DNA from: Pelecanus crispus
Lineage: Eukaryota > Chordata > Aves > Pelecaniformes > Pelecanidae
DNA: 64,000 nucleotides
Direction of reading: 5' to 3'
Assembly (NCBI RefSeq): GCF_030463565.1
Contig: NC_134660.1
Location: 751,501-815,500 of the forward strand
Under the pieces are notes generated by a model, which did no database searches, was not told where the DNA came from, and saw only the letters and a program-made list of their open reading frames with translations. The translations under genes and the position numbers were made by a program. Below, piece after piece: positions 1-64,000 of this stretch (its first letter is position 1; each line of letters opens with the position of its first letter).

Positions 1-108
1 AGGACTGTGAATGGGCAGTAGTTGATCACTTATTCTTAGGACTCTACCACCAGTCTCTAAACCAGTGAATGCTGTGATTATTCTCAGCCATGTTTCTCAT
101 CACTTCAG
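1..108 (+). other. FAM117A: FAM117A intron (3' part)
   Basis: This is the end of an intron of FAM117A, ending in a pyrimidine stretch and the acceptor AG at 107-108. The upstream coding exons lie off the left edge. Nothing else is seen here. Confidence 0.8.
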
Positions 109-3402
<3,294 letters not shown>

Positions 3403-4680
3403 AGCCTGTGGGAAAGATAGCCAGCGACAGCAGCTCTGGCTCCTCAGCATGTCTGTGCCAGCCTGTGGAGACTGGTGCCTTGAAGGTGGGACGTGACAGC
3501 CAAGAGGCAGCCCTGGGACTGAGAAGCACGGTGGGCTTCCTGCGGGGAGGACAGGAACTGAAGTACAGTGTGCCACGGGACTTCTCGCTGCTGGAGAGGC
3601 TTGTCTCGCCAAGCCTCCCCTGTTCAAAGCACTTTCCTGTGTTGAATTGTCTTTGTTTCCCGTGTGATTGTTTTGCTGGTGAAGGGCAGCCGGGCACTGC
3701 TGCGGGGAGCAGAGGCAAACTCGTGCTCCATGGCTCTGAACAAGGCTGAGCTGGGAGAATTCAGGCAGGGCTTCCTAGCACCCCTCACCCCTGCGGCCGC
3801 CTGGGATTGCTGAACCCTGGGGAGTGGGAATGGGGGAGAAGGGGCCTGTGGGAGGGCTGCCCTTGGGTGTATGACGCAGAAAATGTTGTGTGTCTGCACT
3901 ATTGAGACAGCTCGCCTTCATCGGAGCACGGGGCGGGCTGGAGAGCAGTGGATCCCTGGCTGTGCCTCCCCCGGCCACCTTCACCCCTCGAAACAAGCCC
4001 GGAGCTTTAAGAATGCCGTGCTGAACGGGGACGAGTGTGGGTGACTGAACACGGGCTTCCACGGCTCTGTGCACCTGAGAGCTTGCGGGACCAGGGGTGA
4101 AGGAGGCATCCAAGGCGTGCACTGCCCACCGGGCTTCTGCAGGTGGGCAGGGGTCTTCCCGGTGCCCTGGCTGTGCTGCAGGAAGGGAGTGAAAATGGGC
4201 AGTGCCCGGAGGTCCCTGCTCCGGGGGTGTTGCTGCTGTAGAGAAGCTACCCGCTGCTTTCCACCCTGCGGCCCGGCTGGGGGGGCCAGGACCCCCCTGC
4301 CTCGCTGGGGGCCAGGCTGGGCGCCCGGCGGAGCTGTCCCAGTGCCATGGCCTAGGAGGTGAAGCGATAACACGGGAACATTGATCGTAAAGCCTCTTGG
4401 CAACAAAAGTGTTTGGTTGTTTGGTTTTGTGTTCTGTTGCGAAGGCTCTGGGTTGTATTGAAGAAGCCCGTTTTCTTGTATCTGATGTAGAAACTCTATT
4501 TTCTTCCAAAGACACTATTTTTGCAGCTGTTTGAAGTCTATTTTATGTATGTATTACAAAGCTTAAAGGAGGAATGTTTGCTTTGGAGTTCTTGTCTTGT
4601 GTTTAGAGGGCTCTCTCGCAGATGCTGGTGTTGCCAGTTAAAAGGAAACGAAATAAATATTTCAGGCATTCACACTGCTG
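3403..4680 (+). other. FAM117A: FAM117A 3' UTR
   Basis: About 1.27 kb lies between the FAM117A stop and its polyadenylation signal. It is fairly GC-rich up to about 4370 and T-rich near the end. Open frames on both strands here are GC-driven and have no recognised content. The exact cleavage point was not determined. Confidence 0.75.
4652..4657 (+). terminator. FAM117A: FAM117A polyadenylation signal AATAAA
   Basis: A canonical AATAAA lies about 1.25 kb after the FAM117A stop. It is followed about 25-40 nt later by a G/T-rich stretch (tgctgctttggggttttaat). The CpG island of the next gene begins almost immediately afterwards. Confidence 0.8.
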
Positions 4681-5125
4681 CTTTGGGGTTTTAATACAGC
4701 CTTCGGCGGGCCGCCGTTGGAGCCCGCTTCTGCTGGAGCGGTGCCGGCGGCTGCCGGGCGGCTCTGCCGGGGCTCGCTGCTGCCCCGCTGGAGCCCCGGT
4801 GGCACCGCGCCTCGAAGCTCGCTCCCGTGGGGGAGCGGGGCTCGGCTGAGCAGCGCGAATGCGGCGCCTGCGCTCGGCCGTGGGAAACGGCTGCGGGCCG
4901 CGGGACCCTCGGCGGGGCAGGGCCGCGCATGGCGGGGGCAGCCCCCTCTCGCCGGGCGGGAGCAGCTGTTCACGGTCAGGTTTATTTTAGGCGCTCGCAG
5001 CCCCGGCTCCTGCTCCCGAGAGGGGCCCCGGGGGCTCTGGCTCCGGCTCCCTGGGGCCTGGCGCGGGCGGGCGGGCGGCGGGACCTGCGCGGCGCTGTCG
5101 GGGCGGGTGGGGGAACACACGACAC

Positions 5126-5137
5126 TGCGCATGCGTG
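5126..5137 (+). promoter_or_regulatory. NRF1-like site in SLC35B1 promoter
   Basis: TGCGCATGCGTG matches the NRF1 consensus YGCGCAYGCGCR except at one position. It lies about 90 bp upstream of the CCAAT box. Confidence 0.5.
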
Positions 5138-5215
5138 CAACCCGCCCGAATCGCTCGGGCGGCGGCGGGAAGGCCAACAGGGTATCGCCTGTTAGCTCCG
5201 CCCCTGGCCGTGCGA

Positions 5216-5234
5216 CCAATCCCCGCGCTCCACG
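5216..5234 (+). promoter_or_regulatory. ER-stress response element (CCAAT-N9-CCACG)
   Basis: CCAAT at 5216-5220, exactly nine bases (CCCCGCGCT), then CCACG at 5230-5234. This is the full ERSE pattern on the coding strand, about 375 bp before the SLC35B1 start codon. In ERSEs, NF-Y binds CCAAT and ATF6 or XBP1 binds CCACG. The spacing and both half sites are seen directly; function is inferred. Confidence 0.7.
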
Positions 5235-5237
5235 TCT

Positions 5238-5246
5238 ATTGCGTCA
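5238..5246 (+). promoter_or_regulatory. C/EBP-ATF composite site
   Basis: ATTGCGTCA reads TGACGCAAT on the other strand. That is a chimeric CRE-C/EBP sequence of the kind bound by ATF4-C/EBP dimers. It starts four bases after the ERSE. Confidence 0.5.
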
Positions 5247-5606
5247 CCTCCAGGGCCGCGCTCGGCGAAGGGCCCCGGGCTGGGGCTGCCCCGGGCGCTG
5301 CCTGCCCCGAGGGGCGCCCGGCCGCCGGCAGCGGGGCCCGGCCGCGGCGGGGGCGGCTCCGGAACGGCCACGGGGGGTCTGGGCGCACCCCTCCCGGCCG
5401 GGCCCGCCCGGTGTCCCGGGCTGCCGCCCCCCCCTCCGCCCCGCCCCGGGCCCGGCAGCGCGGCGGGCGGGCGCGGCCGTGCCGGGCGGGCCCTGGCTGG
5501 CGGGCGGGCGCAGGCCGGGCGTATGAGGCAGCCCGCTCCGCCGCCGGCCGCGCCGCGGGATGTGGCGCTGGACCTGGCCCCGGCGCTGAGCGGCCCCGCC
5601 GCCGCC

Positions 5607-8600
5607 ATGGGAGCGAGCGCCAACGGCGCCGGCCTGCCCGAGCGCCTGCGGCTGCCCGTCTGCTTCCTGGGCGTCTTCGCCTGCTACTTCTACTACGGCA
5701 TCCTGCAGGAGAGCATGTGAGCGCGGCCGGGGCCGGGGGAGGCCGCCCTCGCTGCGGGCCCCGGTGCCGTCACGGCCCGGGGAGCCTCCTCCGGGCTGGG
5801 TCCCGCCCGGCGTCCCCCCGTGCCCCGGGGAGGGGAGGGAGGGGAGGCTGCCCTGGCCCCGGCGCTGTCTCACCGCGTCCTCGAGGAGGGGAGGGGAGGG
5901 GAGGGGAGGGGAGGGGAGGGGAGGGGAGAGGAAGGGGAGGCTGCCCCGGGCCGGGCCCCGGCTCACCGTGTCCCGCTCTTGCAGCACGCGGGGCCGGTAC
6001 GGCGAAGGTGCGAAGCAGGAGAAGTTCAAGTACGCCCTGACCCTGGTGTTCATCCAGTGCGTGATCAACGCCGCCTTCGCCAAGTTCCGTAAGTTGAGTC
6101 TCGGCCGCTGCCGGCTGGCTCTGGGCGCCCAGGGGCTCCGCTGCTCGGGAAGCTCAGCCACGAGTCGCCAGCCGGGGTTTTGCCCATTTGCTGCTGCTCC
6201 TGCGGCAGGGCACCGGCGTTGCTTGTCCCTCACATTTCTGGTGACGTTCTTGAGGCGCTTCACGATGGCGGCAGCTGCTCGCAACTCTCCTGACTTTCCT
6301 CTTCTTTGTCATCCTTTCAGTGATCCAGTTTTTTGACGCCGTCAAAGCGGATCGCACCCGCAGCTGGCTGTACGCCGCCTGCTCGCTCTCCTACCTGGGC
6401 GCCATGGTTTCCAGCAACTCGGCTCTGCAGTTCGTCAGCTACCCGACGCAGGTGGAGCGGGGCAGACGCCGCGGGGCACGAGGGGAGGCGGCGTTAGCGC
6501 ACGGCCTGGCGCGCTGATACGCCCCAGCGCGTGGGGTAACCCAGAACGGGCTCTGTGCTGGGGAAGCGAATGTTGGGGAAGAACCAGCTGGTGAAATGAC
6601 GTGGAGGGAAATGTGACTTTGACACTTGTTTTTCTGTAACAGCTTTTGTAGGGCTGTATTGCTGTGTTTCAGTCAGCACTGGGTGTGTAGAGAGGGGTTA
6701 AGAAAGCTCAGCCTGTCCCAGAAAAGGAAGAGCAATCCCTAGAAATTATGGGAATCTGCTAATTGGGAGTCGGTGCTAATGTTGGAGGGCTTGAGATGAT
6801 TTCTGAAACCTTCACCACTAATTTAGTAGTTGCCCTCTTCTTTTGAGGTATCTGGCACATTTTACTGGAGGGGTGTGGGGCATCGGGGTGCTCTGATCGC
6901 GGGCGGCCGCCCTTGCATTGCCGTGATCTCTCGTTGCGGGCGGGTGACGGTATGCAGACAGCTAATACAACCTTTCTTTTATAGGTCCTGGGCAAATCCT
7001 GTAAGCCCATTCCAGGTAAGGAAATTTCACATTTCTTCTTGTGTTTGTGTGGATTCCTGGTGCGCTCAAGGAGGAGCCCCACTGTCAAAACAGCACCTCT
7101 CCCCTCCTACCCGCTCCGCCGCGGGAAGTGCAGGCGGTGGTTCACCTGTGTGGTGTTCTGTGGGCTGAGTGGAGATCTCACCAGGGGGTCTGGGAGCGGT
7201 TTGTGATGTTGCTTCTTTACAGTCATGCTCTTAGGAGTGACTTTGCTGCGGAAGAAGTATCCCCCGGCCAAGTATCTCTGCGTCCTCTTGATAGTCGCAG
7301 GCGTGGCCCTGTTTCTGTACAAACCGAAGAAAGGGGCCGGGAGCGATGACCACGTCTTTGGCTACGGAGAACTCCTTCTGGTGAGTGCTGCCAGCGCACC
7401 AATAACCCCGGCAGGGGCAAGGAGCAGCAGTTACAGCGCAGATAAGGCCGCATCCTTTGTACCTCAAGCGTATCCTAAAGCTGGTGTGTAAGCGCTTCCG
7501 CAGGAGGAGACCTGGGCTTGAGGGGTGTGCTGGTGGTACGAGATCAGCACGTGAGTACGCGCGCATCCCTCTCAGCCTGGGTTTTGAGGCCGTGTACTTG
7601 CTGTTGAATAGGCGATTGGGATGTGAAAAAAGGGGGGGAATGCTTGAGATTTTCCCCATAGAGAAGAAATAAAGAACGAAGGTTTCCTTTGCTTTCCCTC
7701 ACCTCGGCCTCTTCTTTTCTTAGCTGCTGTCACTGACCTTGGATGGGCTGACGGGTGTATCTCAGGACCACATGAGAGCTCACTACCAGACAGGTTCCAA
7801 TCACATGATGCTGAACGTTAACCTGTGGTCCACCTTGTTCCTGGGGGCTGGTAAGGAACACCCTGCAAAAACTACAGCTGCCACCCGTGGGACACCCCGT
7901 GGGATGGGACCTTGAGTCCTGCTCCGAAAAAGGGCCTAGAATGCTTTTTGCAAAACAACTTTGTTTTGTTTTGGGGTTTTTTTTGGTCTGTTTGTATATA
8001 AAAAGTCGGGGTCGGTCAGTGCAGCTCTCCTCCTGCCCGCTAGAGGACACGGCGCCGCGCAGAGCGGCTGCCCAAGGCTCGGCCACCTCGGAGAAGGCTT
8101 CTCCGCCGGCCAGCGCGGTGCTCCAGCCCGGACCCGGGGGTTCCTGCCCAAGGGCTCTCTTGCGCCGGCAGAGAAGCAAACCGTATCCGCGTCGCTTGCT
8201 GCTCCGCTTAGGGAGTAGCGCTTCTAATTAATTGCTAGGGACCGTTCTGTCAGAATTGGATCTGCAGTTAATGATCGCTTCTTTCATTAACTGACTGGGA
8301 AGGCGATCGCTCTTTCTCCTGTCCTCTTTGTTTTCCGCTGTGTGGAGTTTAGTCTTTGCTGTTAGTAGCTCCTGTGGGGCTACGAGCGTAAACTGAAATG
8401 ATGCTACGTAGGCAGCGGCTGCTCGGGCTGCCTCTGGGCTCGTAATTCATGCTTTGCACCTCGATCTTTCTTCCAGGGATACTCTTCACTGGAGAGCTCT
8501 GGGAGTTCCTGAGTTTTACGGAACGCTACCCCAGCATCGTTTACAACATCCTACTGTTTGGCCTGACGAGCGCGCTGGGTCAGGTAAATACGCCTCCCTT

Positions 8601-9424
8601 GTTCTGCAGCCTTCACGGGGATGTGTTTGCCCAGCTGGGAGACGGCAAAGTAAGGCCGCTTCACTTTCCATTGCTTTGGTGGTTGCTGGCTTTCTGTACA
8701 GGCTACCTTCAGAGCAAAACTGGTGGAAGTTTGCATGCAAATGATCAGGATTTGAAATAAGATTCTTTCAGCTCGGGCTTGATGGGCTTTCACCTAAGAA
8801 TACGATCCGTGTTGCACTTTTTCCAGTCAGAGTGACAAAAGGCGTCCATTTGTTTTCTACAGAGTTTTATTTTCATGACTGTGGTATACTTCGGACCGCT
8901 GACTTGTTCCATCATCACCACAACCCGCAAGTTCTTCACCATTTTAGCCTCCGTCATTCTATTTGCCAATCCCATCAGTACAATGCAGTGGGTGGGAACA
9001 GTCCTGGTGTTCTTGGGTAAGTCTGGGAAGCAAACACTGGAGGTCTTTCCCCTGTTAACTTAAATAGAGATGATGTGTAGTGAGGGGAGAGCTAGCAGAA
9101 GATCCTGGTCAAAAAAAATCTAATTGTGTGGCACCACTCTCGATGGAAGAGCGTGTTAGTAGCCTCACCGGTGCAGGAAAAGAGGAACCAAGTTCCAGCA
9201 GATCTGTTTGGTCTTTGGTTTTTCCCCCACACCGGGTAAGTCACTGCCTCTGAGTGACCATTAGTAAGTTGGTGCCGATAAGCTGATTTTTCACAAAGTT
9301 CCTTGTGTTATGTTTGTTTGAAGAACGTGAAGCAATTTTCTATGCACATGGATTATTTTATCTCTTTGCAGGCCTTGGACTTGATGCCAAATTTGGAAAG
9401 GGAGTAAAGAAGACATCGCATTGA
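5607..9424 (+). CDS. SLC35B1: SLC35B1 (AXER), ER-membrane ATP/ADP exchanger, complete
   Basis: Nine coding exons: 5607-5716, 5985-6088, 6321-6451, 6985-7015, 7223-7380, 7724-7850, 8477-8583, 8863-9016 and 9372-9424. They total 975 nt, or 324 residues (human about 322), all with GT-AG introns. Conserved blocks include [101 protein letters not shown] and [20 protein letters not shown]. It is a multi-pass nucleotide-sugar-transporter-family protein, expected to have about ten helices. The C-terminus KKTSH has the dilysine ER-retrieval type. Family knowledge: SLC35B1 brings ATP into the ER lumen in exchange for ADP. The start at 5607 sits in an ideal GCCGCCGCCATGG context. An in-frame ATG at 5523 has a poor context and would add 28 residues. 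Exon 4 is a 31-nt microexon. The upstream ERSE suggests stress induction. Confidence 0.97.
5884..5940 (+). repeat. (GGGGA)n tandem repeat in SLC35B1 intron 1
   Basis: About eight near-perfect GGGGA units lie on the coding strand in the first intron, with a related GGGAGGGGA stretch at 5828-5846. The repeated G-runs could form G-quadruplexes. Confidence 0.85.
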
Positions 9425-21440: not shown

Positions 21441-21671
21441 TGACAGGCATAAAGCATGTTTGCTTTATAATCCTTTTCTTAAAAGGTTAAAATAAATGCT
21501 GCCTGCACCTTGGGAAAAAAACCTCACCAATCATCCTCAAACCTGGCAGGAAATTCTCATTGTGCACAGCGCAGGGAACTGCTCTTCACAAGCACTGGTG
21601 ACCCACGCAAACGGCCCGCGATCCGGCCTGAAGCGAGAGAAGGGGGAGGACGGTTTGTGTTTGTCCCGAGT

Positions 21672-21745
21672 GTCCCTGCCCACTGCAGGGCGGGTGGGCT
21701 ACGGCCTCTAAGGTCCCTTCCAACCCAAAGCATTCCATGGTTCTG
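21672..21745 (+). mobile_element. CR1 LINE 3' fragment, forward orientation
   Basis: A short CR1 tail contains ccctgcccactgcaggg and then aggtcccttccaacccaaag, ending in cattccatggttctg, which resembles the ATTCTATG terminal repeat. It is opposite in orientation to the fragment at 21128 and abuts the SPOP CpG island. Confidence 0.75.
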
Positions 21746-22019
21746 TTTTCACTACCCAACGCTACGCCCAACCCTCGAATGAACGGGCAGGAAAGGCGAA
21801 AGCAGGCCTCCCAACAGCAGGGCAGACGTCCGCCCTCCCGCCTCCCCCAAGGCTTCCTCCCCGGCTGATTGTCAGTGAGCCCCTGCACCGGCTCCGGGCG
21901 GGGCGCCCAGCCCGCACGCCCCACCAGGAGAGGCCTCCGAGGCCGGGAGCGGTGCGCCGGCGCCTCGGGCCGCCGGTTCCTCACAGAGGTGCGAGGAAAG
22001 GGCCGACGCCCTTCCCGCC

Positions 22020-22031
22020 TTTTTTCCCGCC
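22020..22031 (+). promoter_or_regulatory. E2F-like site
   Basis: TTTTTTCCCGCC matches the classical E2F consensus TTTSSCGC. It lies at the 5' side of the SPOP CpG island. Confidence 0.4.
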
Positions 22032-22367
22032 TTGCCCCGCCCCGCGCGCGCGCAGAGCGCCGCCCCCGCCCCCGGCCGTGTCGGTGTGGGGCGGCGCGAG
22101 GAGGCGGCGGGGGCCCCGCCGGCAGCCGCGTCCCGCTCAGGTGAGGTGGGAGGGGGAGAAGCAGCACGAGGACTCGGGCGAGGACTGGAGACCTCCACAG
22201 GGCCGGGGGAAGGTGGCGTCGTCCCCCCAGCGCTTGCCTCTGCGAGGTGTACGGGGGGCAGACCTGTTCCTGCGGCGGCCCGGCCGCACGGCTGCGGTGC
22301 GAGACCCGCAGGGGCCTGCCCGCCTCCTCCGCCGGCCGGTGCGATGGCGCTGCGACGGGAGCGGCTC

Positions 22368-22800
22368 CCTGCCAAATAGCGAGCCGCCGCCCTGAGCGGC
22401 CCCCGCGGCGCACGGCGCATGCGCCCCCGCGCTGCCAGAAGTGAGTCCCCGGGGGTGGGGCAAGGCGGGCGGGGCGCGCATGCGCAGTGGAGGGGCGTGT
22501 TGGAAGGAGGCGGCGCATGCGCGGGGGGGGGGGCTGGGCTGGCGGCGCAGGCGCAGGGGGTGGGCTGTGGGGGGGGACTGTGCGCATGCGCAGTAGGTAT
22601 GAGCGGGGGGGCGCCGGGGAGGCGGTGTTGTTCGTGCCCGCGCATGCGCGGGCGGAGGGGGGCGCTGGGAGCAGCCATATCCTGCCTGGCCGCCGCTGGC
22701 GCATGCGCAGGAGGCGGCTGCGGGCACCTGCGGAATAGTGAGCCGCGGCGGCTGCGGGGGGACCTGGCGGAGGCAGACATGCTGCCAAATAGTGAGCCCC
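22368..22800 (+). repeat. Dispersed repeat of a CTGCCAAATAGTGAGCC-like motif
   Basis: Four related copies are seen: CCAAATAGCGAGCC (22372), CCAGAAGTGAGTCC (22435, overlapping a splice donor), GGAATAGTGAGCCG (22732) and CCAAATAGTGAGCC (22785). They flank and interleave with the NRF1 array. I do not recognise the factor that would bind this. Confidence 0.55.
22415..22708 (+). promoter_or_regulatory. Cluster of six NRF1 palindromes
   Basis: Exact GCGCATGCGC occurs at 22415, 22476, 22513, 22582, 22640 and 22699. A one-mismatch copy, GCGCAGGCGC, is at 22545. NRF1 recognises YGCGCAYGCGCR. Start-to-start spacings are 61, 37, 32, 37, 58 and 59, so the block looks like a degenerate tandem array with a period near 30-37 or 60 bp. 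Confidence 0.8.
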
Positions 22801-25020
22801 GGCTGCTGGTGTTCTCCTAGGGGGGCCGGCCGCCGAGAGCGGGGCAGAGTCCGGGGCGCCATCCCCACCCGCCGCACCTGCCCGGGACAGCGCTCCTCGG
22901 CCTTCCCCGCCTGCCTCGGAGCGCGGCGTCCTCCGGCGGTGGGAGCCGCTCGTAGGGCCGGGAGGTGAGAGCCGTGGGGAAGGGGCAGGAGTTGAGAGGA
23001 GAGCGGGGTCGGTGGCTCGGCTGGGGAGAGCGGGGGAGCAGGGCCCGCGGCGGGGAGCGGTGCGGCCGGGAGGGTCGGGGGGAGGCCTGGGAGGGAGATC
23101 CCTCGAGATCCCGGGGCGGGGGTGGAGGTTCGGTGGGCTGCCAGGACCTGCGTAAGGAAACACGAGTGGGAGAAAGGAAATAGGGGCTGGAGTGGAAAAA
23201 CTGAGGTGACTAACAGCGTAACCGAGTAAGGGATGACAGGTCACGGCTTTGCCACCCAGGGCTGTGAGGCACGTTTCCAAATCAGGATGGAACTTGGTTG
23301 TCCTATGAATTAGACCTCGGGGGGGCTGGGATCAGTACTGGTATTTCTGAGCTGTGTCTCAGGCCTGTGGTGGTGTTTAAAGGAAATGGTGCATTATCAT
23401 GCAGTATGGAAAGGCAAAAGAATTCCCTTTCGCAGTTAAATGTGTCGCTAATACGATTTGATAGCCGAGTGCTAATGCTTGTAGCAAGCGCTGTCTTGAT
23501 TAGTGATAGGTGGGATTATAAAGGTAAAATATTATTATAGTATTTGCAAAGCTGCCTGTGAGACAGAATTGCCTTTTTCTGACAGGAGTTTTTTTGGGAG
23601 AGAAAAATACGGAATGTAATGTTATTTGTTGTCATTTTTCTGTAACTCGGCATTATTAGATGTGTTTACATTTCTGATTGTAGAGCATTGTTGTGATATA
23701 ATGAAAAGGAATCCTTTTTTGTGACTTTCTTTTTTTTCGTTGCCTTTAGAGTTCTAAATGGTTATGTCTGGGGTGGCTTGGTGTGAAGCCCTATAAAAGT
23801 CTGAAGAATTTCACTATTATTTATGCTTTCTAAAATAGAACTCTTTGGTTATTAAAAAAACCCCCTACATTCGTTAAGTAAAACGTGTAACTGGCTTGCT
23901 TCTTTTTCAGTGACATTTTCTAACCAGATGCCCAGAATGATTTGGTTTCATTATGTCACTTGTTTCATTGCGATTTTTTTTTTTTTCCCCCTTAATGGTA
24001 CTTTGTCATGGGTGTGTATCGAGATCAAGACAACATGATAGCAGAGTACATCGCAAGCTGTCATCCTGTCACTGTATCAGTAGAGGACAGTAATACAAAA
24101 CTGTACCTACCCTAAGATCGGAGAAACTACTGTCAGATCTGATATCCTGATTTACCTGAGTGTAGTTACCACTGTTAGAACACTAATTGTGTTTCCTCCC
24201 CAAAACCTCCAGGATCCGCGCATGGATACAGGTCAGGGAGGGAGCTGGAATGGAAGGGGTTTTGTTTTGACACATGGTCTCAGGGAGCAGTACCATCCCT
24301 GATTGCACAGATCGCAGTGGAGTGCTTAAAAAATACCATTTCCTGTGTAATTGATTTTACAGTTTGCTCGTGTTTTAACACGGAGAAGGTACCAGTACTG
24401 GCAACAGCATTGGGTTGATTAGACCTGATAAATGTTAAAAACAATTCCATTCACCAGAGTCTTCTCTCAGTTTCCACTGAGCCAGCTTGACCAGTGTGGG
24501 GGGAGGTTTAGGGTTAATCTCTGAACTGCAGCTCAGCCTCTAGATGGGCCTAGTGTTAGTACGTACCATGAACGGAGTTTGTTGCCGTGTGATTTTTCTA
24601 GATACCAATCCAGTTTACAATAAGAGGGACTTACCAGCTTTGTTCTTGGCACACCCTTCTGTTCAGCGTTTTACTCGTGGGGCTTGCTGTTCCACTGCCT
24701 GGCTCACTGTAGACCTGTAAACTTGAAATCATCTGCTTCATTTCTTCCTGGACATTATTTCTGCAAAATTGGGCATAAAGCTGGGAAAGATATCTATTTC
24801 TTGTGTGATCAGGAGCTATTGCTGTGGTATTGATTGCATTCATAGTTCCACCCTTGGAAATACCCACTGTAATTTTGCAAAATTCCTTCTCTCCTCCCAG
24901 CTTTGGCTTGATTTTCTGCACGATTGGACTATTATGTAAGATCTTGCTGTATTCCTCCAACCTCTGACTGCTGGTGTTTCCTTCTCAGCACAGGGAGGAA
25001 ATACAACAAAAATACGTTTT

Positions 25021-54370: not shown

Positions 54371-55440
54371 GTCACACGGGGATCTTGTTCGGACGCGGGG
54401 GAGGTGGGTGCGCTGGTCCTCGATAGTTGATAGCGCGGCGTCCTGGACAGCGGCGTCTGCGTGGATGTCTGCGAACCTGTTCCTCGCTGCCGCCTCCGAT
54501 GCGGTAGCTGCAGCGCTTTTTATCTGCTTTTTTGTCTTGGCGTGGTGAGATGAAGCGGTGTAAGTGTTCGCTCCTACAATTGTTGCATCTCATAGCTGGG
54601 GTGGGTCCGTTTTTCCTGTTCACGCCTACTTGCTTCAGTCTTCACGGTAGGACTGCAAGGTTCTCGTTGCTTTTTTATTTTGCGTTGGGAGAAGAGTTTC
54701 CCACTGTTGATTCCGGTTGCTGCATTGCAGTTTGTCTGCATTCCCTTTCTTTCCCGCTAACTTTTTTCACTCCTCTAGGCAGGTGGCGTTGGCAAAATTA
54801 TTGCTTATTACTGAATTTTTGCCAGACAACAAAACACTCGACAAAAATAGCTCAACAGGATGCTGGGTTGTTAGTCCGTGGCCAGGTTACGGCTCGCGGC
54901 CAGCTCCGGCGGCTGCTGGAGGCTCGTCGGGGCTTTCACCCCGCTGCAAGGACGACTGGCTGGCGCTTCCTGTGGCCAGCGATGAGAGCTGGCGGGCCGG
55001 CAGCTTCCTCTTCCCGTAGCCTGTGCTTGCAGATTTGGGGAGATCGCCTTCTGCCCCGCGTGTGTGCGGCAAGGAGACGGCAGACTCGGGCGAGGTCGTT
55101 ACCGTGCCGTGCTCAATTGAAACGGCGGCGTTGTGCAGCGGCGCGTTCGCCCCACAGCAGCCTCGGCGCTGCTCTGGCTTGGGGCAGGGTAGAGCGGAGC
55201 GGAGCGGAGCGTTCTCGGTTGGAAGGGACCTGCCACGATCGTCCAGCCCAGCTGCCGGTATCTTTGTGAAGCCAAGATAGCAGCGATGCGTGGCACGCGT
55301 GCCGCAGCGTGCGGGCTGCCGGGCAATGGTTCCTCGTCTGTCCGCGCCCTTTGCGGTGGCTCTGCCCAGGGGCAGGCGGTGACTCCATCGCCCGCAGTCA
55401 CCGCTTGCGACTGTAAAACGTTTCGACACGAATGAGCAGG
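54371..55440. other. GC-rich, CpG-containing block
   Basis: CpG density is raised in parts, mainly 54395-54500 and 54880-55400. It may be a weak CpG island, but no transcript structure is visible. Open frames of 245 and 180 codons on opposite strands overlap here and are most likely composition artefacts. It contains a short GAGCG repeat (55193-55211) and a CR1 remnant. Confidence 0.45.
55210..55270 (-). mobile_element. Short CR1 LINE 3' remnant
   Basis: tcggttggaagggacctg followed by ccacgatcgtccagccc matches the reverse complement of the CR1 tail, as at 21140. Only about 60 bp is recognisable. Confidence 0.55.
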
Positions 55441-58400
55441 AGATACTCGGATGGGTTGTGATAATTTCTCTCTCTAGAGGTTGTGAAAATAAAATGCGTT
55501 TTCTTTATTCTCCTCTGCCCAGCGTGATGTCACTCCTAACTCAGATCCTCCTGAATTTAAAAAAAAAAAAGAAAAAAAGAAATAATAAAAAACAAAGCAC
55601 CTTGCAGATTTGATTTCTAATGTGATGTGCCAGATGGTAAAACCTGAATTAGGTAGCAGGCATTACTTAGCTGGGGCCTGTAAACAAAACTGAACTATGA
55701 AATACTCTTTAATGAGCCAGATTTATTTCTAGGTGCTGAAGCCTCAAAAGGCAAGGGAAAAGGAGAGGCATTTCACATACGGTAAATGTTTAAATAAGCC
55801 TTTTCCTTCCTTTCAGCACCACAGCAATAACTCCATTCCGTCCCAGGGCTGCTGGGACTTCTAAAATGCATAATTCTGTGAGGTTATAATTATTGTGGGT
55901 GCTTTAGCACGGCGTGGGGCTGGGCTGTAGGATGTAAGTGGTGTTTTTGTTATATTGATGAGTGGTTTGCTTTTTAAATCTTGTCTAGATATTCTTTGAC
56001 AGCGTGGTTCTCCAAATTTAAATGGAGCAAATGCCTTTTACCTGCTGCCCCTGAACCGGCGCCGCTCCTCTCGGGCTGCGGCGCTGCAGGGCGAGCGGCG
56101 GGCGCGGGCAGATTGCGCGGCGGCGGTTCAGCAGCGCCTGGCGGGCAGCGTCGCGGGGATGAAACGCTGTGGATTCAGCAGCCGCGGCTGTGCTGACCGG
56201 TGGCTCCGTTCACGTTTCCCCTCCTGCCCCCAGCACTGGCACCTCGTGCTGCTCGGCACTGCTCTCTCGGCACGCGGAGAGGAACTGCGTGAGGTTTTGA
56301 TGTAAGCAGACTTCTCCTGTCGGTGAACAGTCACTAGATATTTAAAATATGTGTTATTACCTTCCCCCTAATATTTGAAACCTCTGGCTATGGATTGGCG
56401 CTATACAAAAAGCGTGTGGGTGTTTGCTTCTGTAAAATGGCAAAGTACGGAGGAGAGAATAGGCTTTAGAAACAGCGGGAGGAGAGCTCGATGCGTCGGA
56501 AAATAGGTAGGCTGTGTTTAAGTACAGATAATGCGTACAATAATACTTTATTTTTCAAAGATCTTCAGTTGTTTTAGAAAAACAACAACAAACCAGCCCA
56601 GAACTTCAAACCTTTGCTATCTTTTGGCTCTCGGTACCCTACCAGAAATGCTTTTCTTTGGCAGACAGAGGTCTGTTGCAGACGGGGGCTCGAGCACGGT
56701 CAGTTTTGACATTCACAGGTCCCACCGCGGGCGGTCTCGGCGGAAAGCTGTGCCTAGACTGCGTCCTTGTGTTTATTCCCCATTTGTTAGCATGGGACGT
56801 TCGGGGATGCTTGCATTGCCACTCCCTCTGCTCATGCTGTTCTTGGCAATGGGTGCACGGCTAGAGAGCTGCCAAGAAAAATTGGGCCAGTACCTTGTTT
56901 TCAAAGGTTTATTGGATGTTGCAAGCATGCTGTAATGTCACATCTTGTGGTCAAAGAGTTTTAAGCAATTTTAAGCGCTGCTTCCACCTGTTTTCCAAGC
57001 TTCATTCCCAAAATAGAAATAAAAAAATCACGAGAGTGCCAAGCCCACCCTTTTGCTCATAAAAATGTAAATGGGAAGTTGTGTCTTCCGAGACCTGCTT
57101 ATGCTCTTTTGGTGCTCTGGGGATGAAGTAGCCCTCTTCCAACCAGATGAAGAGGGATGTTTTTCCAAAATTCAGTTCCATCCCTAGACACAAACAACCC
57201 TGTGTATTAGAAACAGACCTCAAAATGAGGCGTTTTCACAACAGAGTTGCTGTGGGGAGGTTTCTTCCATCAGCACCTATTAACCACGAGTTTGTCCCTG
57301 TTGTCTGAGCAGCCGTAGAGACTCCTTACAACGGACCCCAACTACGATTTATTTCTGTAGAGCTTTTCTTAGGGAATAATTTTAAGAGACCAGAAGAAAT
57401 GATCTGGTGCATCCTTGTGTCCCAAGGCAAGGTTATTTTTAAATGGGGTTCAGACCTCTTTACTGGCATTAACTGGCAGATTATAACCCGTAAAGCAAAA
57501 ATACGTGGATCTCCTTCAGGTTACTGGCTGTAGCTTGAGACGTCGGCAGGATGCGTTAACACCCAGGCGTCCCGTTTTGCAGCCGATTGACTTGTGTGTG
57601 TTGCTGCTTCAGAGCTTGCTTCTGTTTATTTTCAATACGTAAGGGGAGAGATCAGGCAAAATTTCCAAAACTGTAGATAGAATTCAGCCGATTTCAGGGG
57701 TGAGGAAGAGGAGTGGTAGGAAGAAACCACTGAACAGCATTTACTGCTTATCATTGATAAGTATACGATACGATTGATAGCTGCTCAGAAAACCTTTCAC
57801 TCGTGTCCATTTATTTCAAGTCCTACTATAATAGGTAATTAAAGTATACTAATTGAATTAAGATCCCATCTGTCTGAGTTCAGCAAGCCAACAAGTCCCT
57901 TAATTAAGATACCATGTTTGCTATAACAGAGGCTGCAAACACAGAGCTGGCCACCAATGCTGTAAGCAAATATCTGTCTTCCCATGACAGAGTGCCAAAG
58001 CACCCGCTGGGCTGAGAGATCAAAATAAAACCTGCAAGGTGAGCAGCACTTGCTCGTGGGATAACAATAAATACAAGAATAGTTACGCTTCCTCTGATAG
58101 CTGAGAAGAATGCTGATTTGAGCTGGGTGCAAACGCTTCCAAGCACTCGGAGGTAGACGGCAGCAGTAGTAACTGGAAGGCTCTGTATTGGGTATCGGCG
58201 TCTGATCACCGTCTCAGTGGGACGATGTCTAATATTGGAGGCGAGAAGAGAGAACATAGTAGTTAAAATCAGTGTCTTCAGGCTGCAATTCCAAAAGGTT
58301 TATAAAGCACCAGTGTATCCTCAAAGTGATTTGCAGACGCGGTAGGCTCCTGGGCGGCTCCACCGTGGGCTGGCTTCACTTTATTTAACCATCAGCCCCA

Positions 58401-58660
58401 CAAGCGTGCGTGGAGCCCACTGAGGAATCTCCTTTCAGATGCCGTATCTTCACTGGTTTTGTGCCTGGGATTGTGGTTTTCTGAACAAGACATAAACATT
58501 TCAGAGCCCCTGTGCCTGAAACTAAGGATTTCCCTCTAGTTTGGGCTGCTGTGCCATAGCACTGGTCTCTGAACGGGACCCTTCCCAGGAGATGGTTTCA
58601 GCCAAGGAACCTGCTGAAAGTCTCATTTAGTTATAATTGTCTTTCTGCACTTCCTCCAGG
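55441..58660. other. Intergenic DNA, no gene recognised
   Basis: Mostly AT-rich, with an A-rich tract (55559-55594) and a small GC-rich patch (56040-56290). The palindrome CTTATCATTGATAAG lies at 57747-57761. No coding pattern was seen. Confidence 0.5.
57747..57761. promoter_or_regulatory. Palindromic double GATA motif
   Basis: CTTATCA-T-TGATAAG is a perfect 7-1-7 inverted repeat. It places two GATA-factor core sites (WGATAR) back to back. Confidence 0.3.
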
Positions 58661-61260
58661 AGCTTCAGTCTCATGAAACCTTGTTAGGATGCTTTAAAAT
58701 TCTGGAGGAGAAATGTGCATGTGAATGTAGGTGCCTCTTTGCAACTGGGGGACGAGCCCGTGTCAGCGGTGACCGAGCCAGCTGCATCCCACCCGCGGCG
58801 ACTTGCGCCTGCCCGTTTGTCCCCCAATATGTTTCGGAGCAAGAAAACTGGATTTTTCGCTGCTCGTAAAGCAATTTGTCTTGATGGAGGGGTTGGGAGG
58901 TGGCGTAGCAGGTGGCACGTGTCCCTGCTGGGCGCACGGGGAGCCTTCAGGAGGAGCGTGCGCCGCGGGGGATCACCCCATGGTCGTCGCAGGGCGGGCG
59001 CGAGGCCGTCGGTCGTGCAGAAGGGTCGGCAGGCGTGGGGGGAGCAGGAGGGCTGCCGGGCCGGGGTAACGTCCTAGACGCGTCACGAAAATGCAGGCAT
59101 GCGTCCTTGACGGCGCGATGCTTTGATTAGACCGCAGCAGATAATTTTTTTTTTCTCCCCTTATGGGAAGATTTCCCAATGAGGAGGCTAGATGAAAGCG
59201 GACGCTTCTTGACGCAGTTTGAAAGCGGAGAGACATCTGCCACAGATCAGAAAAGCCTGGCAGGTGGAAAACACACCAGCCCTCCCTTCTCCCTGCCTTT
59301 ATCCTGTACGTGGCACATCTCTATTCCCCGTGTGTCGCAGCCACCGCGCTGACGTGGGCTCCGCGCCGCTCGGCAAAGAGCAGCGGCGCCAGAAATCGGG
59401 GTTTGCTCTCCCAGAGCGTGGCGGTGGGGCGAGGCACCGACCTCCCCTCCCTCGATCCCAGCCCGCTCGTACCTTCCCCCTAAAATACCGCACAAAGCCA
59501 CAGGAGCCGGGAGGATTCTGCAGCTCGAGAGCACACGAGTAAAAATGAATTATTTAGCATATTCTTTTAGTGCAAGCAGGTGTGGGGTTTGAAGCGGTTT
59601 GAGTTGGGAATTCTCTGCAGAGGAGTTAGGGTCTGGTGGGATTTGAAAGAGCTGGACAAGTTTTCCATTCCCGTCCTCTTCTTGCTGCCTCTTGACAGCC
59701 TTTCCTTTTTTTTAGGTCTGAATTCTTGTTCTCTTTCTTGTGCTTTCCATCCCCCATAACTTCTCCCTCTCCCTTCATTTCGCCGCTTCACCTGCTGCAG
59801 CGCCTGTGGCCGCCGCCGTAACGATCTATTGAGCGCTGACAGCGCGCTCGACGCCGCGCACTGGCACGCTCGGCGATGTGGCCCCTCGTCCCGGGGGACG
59901 CGGCGCTCTGCAGGCACTGACAGCGCGGTTCGGAGCGTCGCGAGCCGCCAGATGCTAGTTCAGCTGGAAACGGAGCCGCCGAGGCTCACCGAAAGGCTTG
60001 GCAGCAGGCGAGGGCTGGCGTGGAGGTGGCTGTGTTAGGGGCTGGGCGAGGTTGCTGTCTGCCTGTGTGGGTTCTGGTGCGTTGATTCAGGGTATTTTAT
60101 TTTATTTTATTGTTTTTAGAAGGCGGGGGGGTGGTTGGCAAAGCTGTGTGAGCACTGAAGCAGCGTGCCCTTCGTTCTGAGGGGAGAGGACAGGGACAGA
60201 AACGCGCAGGTGGCTGGGGCAGCTCCGCTGTGAACCGCGTCCGAGTGGGTTTTGGACCAACATTCCCCTAAAATCTCTTCCTCCTCCCATCCGTTTTGTT
60301 CAGGCGTTTGGGACCGTCTGTGTGCGAGCATCAGACAGACGCTGTTCTCCTCCACGATCTGCTCAACTCCGTCTCGCCCAGATCTTTCCTGCAGCCTTTG
60401 GTGCTGGTTAATCCCCCGCTCCGCTCGCAGGGAGGGCTGCGGTGTGCAGCGGCTCGCGGCTGCGACGCCAACTGGCCCAGCTCTGCCTGTCCCCGGGGGC
60501 ACAGGGAAGGGCTCTGTGGGCAACAAATGCTCGGGCAACCCCGCTCCTGTGCGCGCACGGAGCTCAGCGCTGCGATTGCAGCCACCCTCGCACCCCAACG
60601 CTCTTGGATAGTTTTGTGCAACCCAAGTAAGTCTGAATTATCCATACAGCACTTAGATGGGAGTATTTCTATTTTTACAAAAAATCGCTATTCCTGTACT
60701 CGGCTCTTCTTGTCTCTTTGTTTGCAATCTAACAAGACCCGAGAGGAAACGCTCACCACGATCTGGATGGTAAGAGATACGCTCCAGCACAGCGAGCGGC
60801 AACGCTGAGCGGTGACCTTAGGGGCCCGGAGGAGAAGGGGTTACTGCATCACATCTCCCTCCTACTCTGGGCACAAGCCTTTAGGAAGCGACATTTGGGT
60901 AGCAGATGGGTGCTCTGGTAGGTCTGGAAACCTCTCAGGCAAAAGTAAATCCTTCCTTCCCACCAGGAGCTTCAGGCCCTATCTGCAGAACAGCACGTAC
61001 GGCTGAGCTCCCCGAGGGAGCAGATTGCCCTATTCCTCCGGCGCCTGGCTGGATGCCGCGCTGCCACCGGTGCACGGAGCGGCAGAGCAGCCCGGCCGCT
61101 CAGCCCGCGAGCCCCGTCCCTCCAGCCGAAGCCGTGTTTGACGCTCTCAGGTAGGTGAGGGTTTGGGGGGGGACGCCAAGGGTGCTTCTCTCCCCCACCC
61201 GCTCGGCACGGCTCCCTCGCGGGCAGGGAAAAGCCGCTGATGGGCGAGCGGTTGCTGCCA
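58661..61260. other. Mixed GC-rich intergenic region
   Basis: GC- and CpG-rich patches occur at about 58740-59100, 59330-59500, 59800-60010, 60400-60600 and 61000-61240, separated by AT-rich text. Two copies of CTGACAGCGCG lie at 59836 and 59917. No gene could be assembled on either strand. Confidence 0.45.
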
Positions 61261-64000
61261 TGATGTGGCATTACACGCTGCAGCTTCTTTCTGGGAGAGC
61301 AGTGCACTCTGCCATTAATTGGAGGGAAAACAATCAGAGACCTGCTGCTTTTGGAGTTTGTTGAAAGCACAGGAAGATGGGGAAATGTTGGTGTTTATGA
61401 AACGGCAGCTGGTGCTAAGCTCTGGCAGGGGAGCGGGAGGAGGAGGAGGGAAGCGGTTGTATTTGGGTTCTGGGTCTAATTGGCAAAACTGTAATAATTC
61501 TTAGATCAAATACACGATGCATTCAGCCCACTTGCATTTTTAGTCTACTGCGTGTAATAACAAGTCATAACACTGGGGATTTCATGAATAATCATTTCTG
61601 CTTGCCTCCCCTTTCAGTGGAGGGTTTCCAGAGTGCTTGATGATCGTGCAGTCTCACTCCATCCCCAGAAGGCAAATGAATATTATCTTTATAAAGAGAG
61701 ATAAGGCAGGCTAGACAAAGGCCTGGAGTAACTTGGTTAAGTTTATCAGAAAAAGCCAATAGCACGATCAGGATTTATGCCCAGGAATTAAGATTCTCGA
61801 ACTGCTTGGAGAACGAGATGTCTGTCCGTAGCACAGCTTGCGTTGGCACCGTGCAACGTGGTCTGTGAAGAGGAGGATCTTCCCTTAGAAAAGAAGAGAA
61901 GGCACAGAGCGGCAGTGAAGAGACTTCGGGAGGGCTGGAGAGTGCAGCGGCTCCCCGGGGGAGGCGGGGGCCGTGGGCTGGGGCGGCACCCCGGGTACCC
62001 GTGCTGCCCCGGCTCTGCTGCCTGACCCATCCCAAAACCTCCGGCCAGTGCCGTCGCTCTGTGTTCAGCGTGACGCTGGCCTGGCACCAGCCGTAACAAC
62101 AAAATCAGACCTGAAGGTGCTTTAATGCACCCAGAAGAGCAGGAGAACCAGCAACGTAATGCCTCCAGGAGCTACCTATGGCTATTGGAATGGGGGATTA
62201 CAGGCATAAGGGCTTGGCTGGCTCGCTAGTCCTCATTAAAGTCTAATAATCTCTATAAAGATGCGGCGTTGCACATGCACAGCAGCCCTGGCCCCTCTGA
62301 GCTACGGCTCGGCGAAGGCTCTATTAGCCATTTGATAGTTTGGGCATGAAACCGTAAAATGTGTGTGTTTGTGTTGTGAAAGAACTTGGGTCAGGATTCC
62401 CTCTGTGAGCCTCAACCTCGGCAGCTTGGCTTAGGAACAGAGGGGCCAGGCTTGTCCCGCAAGCGATGTTAGGGAGCTGCGACGCCGCCGGCAAGCAAGA
62501 CTTGGGGGGTTGCAAAAAGCAGGAGCAACAAAAATGTAAATGCTTTGAGCTTCCAGTGTCCTCCAAGCAAAGCGTTATACGCCCGCCCAGCTGCAGGAGC
62601 TTCAGTATCGCCAGCCTAAAAACTTGGTAAAAGGAAACCCGAGATGGACCGTAAAGTGAGCTTGATGGAGAAATGGTGAAATCTAACACAAATGGACGTT
62701 TGTATTAGCATTGTGACATCTAAGCCTCTAGAAATCCCATTTTCTTGGGTTTTTTTGTGATTAGGCCAATTGTTTTTCTGGAAGCTGAAGTTCTTGAGTA
62801 ACCAAGTGGCTCTGATAGCCACTGCTCTGGGAACTGCTCCAAATATTGCCAAATTCTGGTGAAAACCTCAAAGGTTGGCACCTCCGCAATGTTGATGCCT
62901 TCAAAGAAGCAAGGCTTTTAATGAACAGACTTCCTTCTTCGAGGTCTCAGCATCTGGCTGGAACCTGCTAAAAATGTTTGTGCTTGGAAAAAACCTGACT
63001 GACCCTGAGTTGAGGAAAATCAATGCCTTGAAGCTGTCGTGGTGGTGACAAGGGTCCGGCTGTGCCACCCTTGCATTAACTCGTCGGTCCTTTCTGAAAT
63101 CCTGGAGTAACGCGTTGGCACGCTTTGGAGGCGATAGCTGGCCGCGAGTCTCATTTGAATCTGAGGCCACTGCTGGGTTTTTTGGATATGGTAAATAGGA
63201 AACGGTAGGAAGACAAAGTCTGACTGGAAGATTACAAAGGGAGAAGAGGTCCCACTAACCGACTTAAACAGCATTTTAAGGAAGATGGGGGGAGTCCCAT
63301 CACGTCACTCCTTAAAACCAGAGGGGGCAGAAGCGATGGGATCCACCACCCTGGGACGGAGAGCGGCGTCAGGACTGGGGAGGTGCTGGGCCGGTTGTAT
63401 TCCTGCAGCAAACGCATCGGCTCCTGACTTTTTCCTGACTCATCTAATCCTGGTGCTGGGGAGCCTGGATCAACTGGTCCCCACCAGCCGTAATGAGTGC
63501 AATTACTGGCCGGGGGCTGCTGATTGACTTTGGTGGGAGGGTGGAGCAGGCTGAAGCCGGGTTCTAAATGTGCAGAAGCACAGGTTAGCTCGGCTGGGAG
63601 ACTCATGAAATTTAAATTAGGAGGATTTTGTGGGGAAGAGGAAAAAGTATTAACAAACTAAAGAGAGCTAATTACTGGCGATGGAGAACATTCACTGTGT
63701 AGTTGCAGATGACAGCGGTAAGTAGTTCCCATCAGGGCTTTTCCTGCTTTGGAGACAGAGAGGTTGGCCGTCCACCGAGTTACCAAAGATGATAAGGGGC
63801 TGCATTTTATAAATGGAGGTAGGCTCTAATTGCAGAAATGCCTGCAAATACTTCTGTGGCACTTTGCTGAACCCTGGTGTCACGGAGGATTTTTGAAGTC
63901 TGCTTTCCACAGTCATTACGCGCAGCTTCATTTGTAATGAAGTTTGCAACTCGTGGAACTTCATTTGGATAAATTTTAGCTCCCCCCACCCCGAAACCTA
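61261..64000. other. Intergenic DNA at right edge
   Basis: About 2.7 kb without a recognised gene. The stretches at 61500-61760 and 63600-63980 are rich in homeobox-, POU- and GATA-like words. Nothing matching NXPH3, the expected neighbour, was seen on the minus strand. Confidence 0.5.

Follow-up and report, generated by a model that had tools for sequence, protein, structure and literature searches.

A perfect ER-stress element beside a CRE-C/EBP hybrid site in the putative promoter of SLC35B1 in Pelecanus crispus

We conclude that positions 5216–5234 of the window (the whole 64-kb stretch of DNA analysed here) are likely to be a working ERSE-I of the SLC35B1 promoter, at which ATF6 or XBP1s would act together with NF-Y. 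The exact nine-base spacing of the element, its position in a CpG-island promoter, the function of the downstream gene, the small within-genome calibration described below and the published rise of SLC35B1 expression under ER stress together indicate that the ERSE most likely works. The features of the window on which this conclusion draws are as follows.

1–4670 (end approximate), + strand: FAM117-family gene, 3' part (Pfam FAM117, E 3.6e-14 and 3.9e-24)
4501–6800, no strand: CpG island over the SLC35B1 promoter and first exons (GC > 0.55 and CpG o/e > 0.65 in 500-bp bins)
5127–5135, + strand: GCGCATGCG, NRF1-like site 5' of the ERSE (motif match)
5198–5203, + strand: CCGCCC, GC-box-like site just 5' of the ERSE, one among many in the island
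5216–5234, + strand: ERSE-I, CCAAT-N9-CCACG, with a putative NF-Y half at 5216–5220 and a putative ATF6/XBP1 half at 5230–5234, the latter within CCACGTC
5238–5246, − strand: CRE-C/EBP hybrid site TGACGCAAT (ATTGCGTCA on the + strand), site class from excerpts of PMC5349851 and PMC4501333
5523–9424, + strand: SLC35B1/AXER coding region in nine exons, stop included (PDB match, Pfam match, open frame)

A preliminary description of this DNA had reported CCAAT, exactly nine bases and CCACG on the coding strand, with a CRE-C/EBP hybrid four bases further on, and we confirmed that both motifs are present as described. The sequence CCAATCCCCGCGCTCCACG is an exact match to ERSE-I and the sole perfect ERSE-I in the window; it is also the sole CCAAT-Nk-CCACG pair on either strand for any spacing from 0 to 40 bases, and the same 19 bases occur nowhere else in the genome (1.31 Gb, 310 contigs). 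The hybrid site likewise has a single occurrence in the window, and is separated from the ERSE by TCT (5235–5237), such that it begins on the fourth base. In shuffled versions of the window, a perfect ERSE-I occurred on average 0.07 times (at least one in 7 of 100 shuffles) and ATTGCGTCA 0.25 times (present in 24 of 100), and an order-1 Markov model of positions 4700–5720 gave an expectation of 0.001 for each motif, figures that exaggerate the surprise because the first scan took in 64 kb for any motif.

The gene downstream of the ERSE is, judged from its predicted product, an intact SLC35B1, orthologous over its length. Its exons (5523–5716, 5985–6088, 6321–6451, 6985–7015, 7223–7380, 7724–7850, 8477–8583, 8863–9016 and 9372–9424) splice into a frame free of internal stops, encoding 352 residues if read from the first ATG (5523) and 324 if read from the second (5607). 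A PDB search, for which the query was the form from the second ATG only, matched human SLC35B1 (chain 9grz) over residues 7–324 with an E value of 8.5e-190, and Pfam assigned the protein to the UAA transporter family (4.4e-53). The nine-exon open frame and the 9grz match thus bear out the earlier naming of the gene as SLC35B1. Initiation at the in-frame ATG at 5523 would add 28 residues (MRQPAPPP...; 5523–5606) to the N terminus. The first intron contains 11 tandem copies of a GGAGG-type repeat (5885–5940).

The first base of the ERSE lies 307 bases from the ATG at 5523 and 391 bases from the ATG at 5607, inside the CpG island. Upstream of it within the island are the CCGCCC site, at which the factor is presumably Sp1, and GCGCATGCG, at which we take the factor to be NRF1; the pattern TATA[AT]A has no match in 4600–5720. 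The FAM117-family gene further upstream, which we take by synteny to be FAM117A, includes a frame at 2944–3402, with its coding end at 3402 and an AATAAA at 4652. Since this gene is on the same strand and ends 5' of SLC35B1 with its own AATAAA, the two do not share a head-to-head promoter. Other CpG-island-like stretches are found in the window at 21501–23500, 54601–56500 and 58601–61500, and are perhaps promoters of other genes.

The size of the genome and its presumed CR1-like repeat frames both fit a bird. A genome-wide scan yielded 386 perfect ERSE-I sites, of which 191 are on the forward strand and 195 on the reverse. We examined the surroundings of 80 of these, drawn from 100 sites on two contigs, and scored them as CpG-island-like if GC was over 0.55 and the CpG ratio over 0.65. 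Eight of the 80 sites, at seven places, were CpG-island-like (six among the first 30 and two among the other 50). One place is the GRP94 promoter, recognised by a PDB search with the endoplasmin exon; it has two ERSEs (L026 and L027; G000:C1:63277022-63277153), both perfect, in opposite orientation and 113 bases apart. Their first bases lie 324 and 211 bases from the ATG, with the start codon placed by what we take to be the signal peptide. Two further places are presumably CRELD2/ALG12 and DNAJC3, judged by their sequences; Pfam searches with short pieces of ALG12, CRELD2 and DNAJC3 returned no family. The perfect ERSE-I at the presumed DNAJC3 (L075; G000:C1:168333065-168333083) is 107 bases before the ATG. 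Gene starts could therefore be named at three of the seven CpG-island-like places (GRP94 and, presumably, CRELD2/ALG12 and DNAJC3), and all three are classical stress-response genes.

No gene start could be named at the other four CpG-island-like places (L002, L003, L008 and L088). The perfect ERSE-I at L002 (G000:C1:744012-744030) lies within a CCCACGTCCCCAT-type tandem repeat, and this repeat is a chance source of ERSE-like sites. L003 and L008 have retroelement-like frames nearby, and L088 was examined over 601 bases only. What we take to be reverse-transcriptase fragments of retroelement type (L035 and L037; near 0.80 Mb and 16.93 Mb of G000:C1) are located close to two of these unnamed CpG-rich places. 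About 2 ERSEs per Mb are expected in island-like random DNA, indicating that some promoter ERSEs arise by chance. Small as it is, with three named genes, this calibration lends credence to an ERSE in an ER-gene promoter. We discarded a comparison of the 386 ERSE-I sites with 1379 matches to the reversed pattern as a measure of ERSE excess, since the reversed pattern lacks the CpG of the ERSE.

In its layout, the SLC35B1 element resembles the ERSE-I promoters of ER chaperone genes (GRP94, CRELD2/ALG12 and DNAJC3 in this genome), with CCAAT-N9-CCACG lying 5' of the ATG, in a CpG island, at an ER-folding gene. It differs from them in that SLC35B1 is a nucleotide exchanger, and has one perfect ERSE where GRP94 has two. 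HERPUD1 and DDIT3/CHOP have dual-element stress promoters, in which an ERSE-type element is combined with a C/EBP-ATF site. The two adjoining stress elements at SLC35B1 recall these promoters, with ATF4 input being putative here; unlike HERPUD1 and DDIT3/CHOP, however, SLC35B1 has a hybrid site with a TGAC (CRE) half rather than TGAT. The ERSE-I consensus that we used is as given in PMC5890977, and the GRP and calreticulin genes are published ERSE-I promoters. Among more distant relatives of SLC35B1, plant AtUTr1 is induced by ER stress according to the title of a cited work, and the same is stated for C. elegans hut-1 (excerpt of PMC9286291); the likeness of both to SLC35B1 lies in the induction.

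Consistent with a functional ERSE, SLC35B1 was identified as the ER ATP exchanger through its co-expression with BiP (excerpt of PMC6113206, in which the word "promoter" has 0 occurrences). According to PMC9286291, ER stress raises its expression in C. elegans (citing Shen 2005, ref. 55), in mouse fibroblasts (citing ref. 32) and in human cells (citing Murray 2004, ref. 56). SLC35B1 is also listed at 1.6-fold in bilirubin-treated SH-SY5Y cells (excerpt of PMC2789749). In zebrafish liver, slc35b1 is down jointly with pdia4, hyou1 and hsp90b1, and hence moves together with them; the decrease was taken by the authors as a sign of ER stress, and its direction counts against the ERSE reading (excerpt of PMC4705469). 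ER-stress induction of SLC35B1 is thus already in print, and the surprise of finding an ERSE is modest. Our literature search, which covered few subscription papers, found no paper linking SLC35B1 with an ERSE, and the parts of the SLC35B1 ER-stress literature that it reached describe no promoter element for the gene. The 134 human genes tabulated as having an ERSE-I in PMC5890977 include HSP90B1, CANX and FICD, but not SLC35B1, HSPA5, CRELD2 or DNAJC3. We set this table aside as a test of conservation, since HSPA5, CRELD2 and DNAJC3 are missing from it too, and the absence of SLC35B1 accordingly says little.

CRE-like sites are common near CpG-island starts, which counts for a reading of the hybrid site as a constitutive CRE-like or other bZIP site (for CREB/ATF1, FOS-CEBPG or others) that supplies basal activity, with the stress response passing through the ERSE only. 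We give this reading slightly less than an even chance. In its favour, FOS-CEBPG prefers TGACGCAA in vitro; against it, ATF4-CEBPG prefers the same site class, with the in vitro seed ATGACGCAAT (both from an excerpt of PMC5349851). The site TGACGCAAT has the core of that seed and agrees with it at 9 of 10 bases, the flanking base being G rather than A. This agreement favours a reading of dual control, in which the ERSE responds to ATF6/XBP1s and the hybrid site to PERK-ATF4 through an ATF4-C/EBP heterodimer, such that ER ATP import would be increased by every arm of the stress response. Also on the side of dual control, many stress targets carry both an ERSE and C/EBP-ATF type elements (reviewed in PMC12346540). 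By contrast, C/EBPbeta-ATF4 is reportedly confined to TTRSATCA (PMC4501333), and TTGCGTCA falls outside this preference, with G in place of A. The pattern RTTKCATCA is absent from the window. Moreover, the value given for Slc35b1 in a table on amino-acid starvation in the mouse is −0.3 (excerpt of PMC5292668), contrary to ATF4 input.

The pairing of the two elements was also assessed across the genome. A single ERSE, that of SLC35B1, has TTGCGTCA in the 30 bases downstream of it, and the reversed control gave 0, which speaks for dual control. For island-like random DNA, the probability of TTGCGTCA in either orientation at 31 positions next to a given ERSE is about 0.0007, or about 0.002 for the degenerate form, values that must be read in light of the hybrid motif class having been picked after the sequence was seen. 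With the degenerate pattern TTRYRTCA, by contrast, there were 2 matches genome-wide as against 8 for the reversed pattern. Because it lacks the CpG of the ERSE, the reversed pattern is about 3.6 times commoner (1379 vs 386), and this scales the 8 matches to about 2; the expectation with equal base frequencies is about 1.5 (386 sites, 31 positions, 1 in 8192). The observed number of 2 is therefore no enrichment of the ERSE-hybrid pairing, and we dropped this line of argument for joint control.

On balance, we regard dual control as possible but rather unlikely, and extend the same tentative standing to the fuller proposal that the SLC35B1 promoter is an integrated 31-base module, with ATF6/XBP1s acting via the ERSE and ATF4 via the hybrid site, in which case ER ATP import would be set by all three stress arms and would also respond to amino-acid or heme stress that involves no ER damage. 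The joint control by ATF6/XBP1 and PERK-ATF4 put forward in the preliminary description is therefore upheld for its ERSE half, by sequence, context and literature, while its PERK-ATF4 half is left as a possibility, given pairing at the chance level and a negative starvation value. We consider it improbable that both motifs are chance matches at a plain housekeeping CpG-island gene, because the open-ended 64-kb search, the roughly 2 ERSEs per Mb expected in island-like DNA and the absence of SLC35B1 from the human table are set against an N9 pair that is unique in the window, a gene that supports ER folding and is stated to rise under ER stress (excerpt of PMC9286291), and stress-response genes at all three of the sampled CpG-island ERSE places to which a name could be given.

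In the mechanism that we favour, the ERSE would confer the stress response of SLC35B1. NF-Y would be bound to CCAAT constitutively, and cleaved ATF6, as well as XBP1s, would bind CCACG alongside NF-Y once the ER is stressed. Transcription of SLC35B1, the ER ATP/ADP exchanger, would thereby be raised alongside that of the ATP-using chaperones. From the sequence of the element and its location in the CpG island, both of which were observed directly, we infer factor binding at the ERSE, induction of SLC35B1 and the position of the start site. For the adjacent TGACGCAAT, the likeliest role is that of a bZIP site adding basal or stress input, with ATF4 as one of several candidate factors. Regulation may also be partly post-transcriptional, as Slc35b1 is alternatively spliced in mouse enteroids exposed to thapsigargin (excerpt of PMC5000506). 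The 31-base stretch at 5216–5246 offers a defined target for mutation, and the ERSE within it is a direct cis element that could account for the co-expression of the ER ATP exchanger with BiP.
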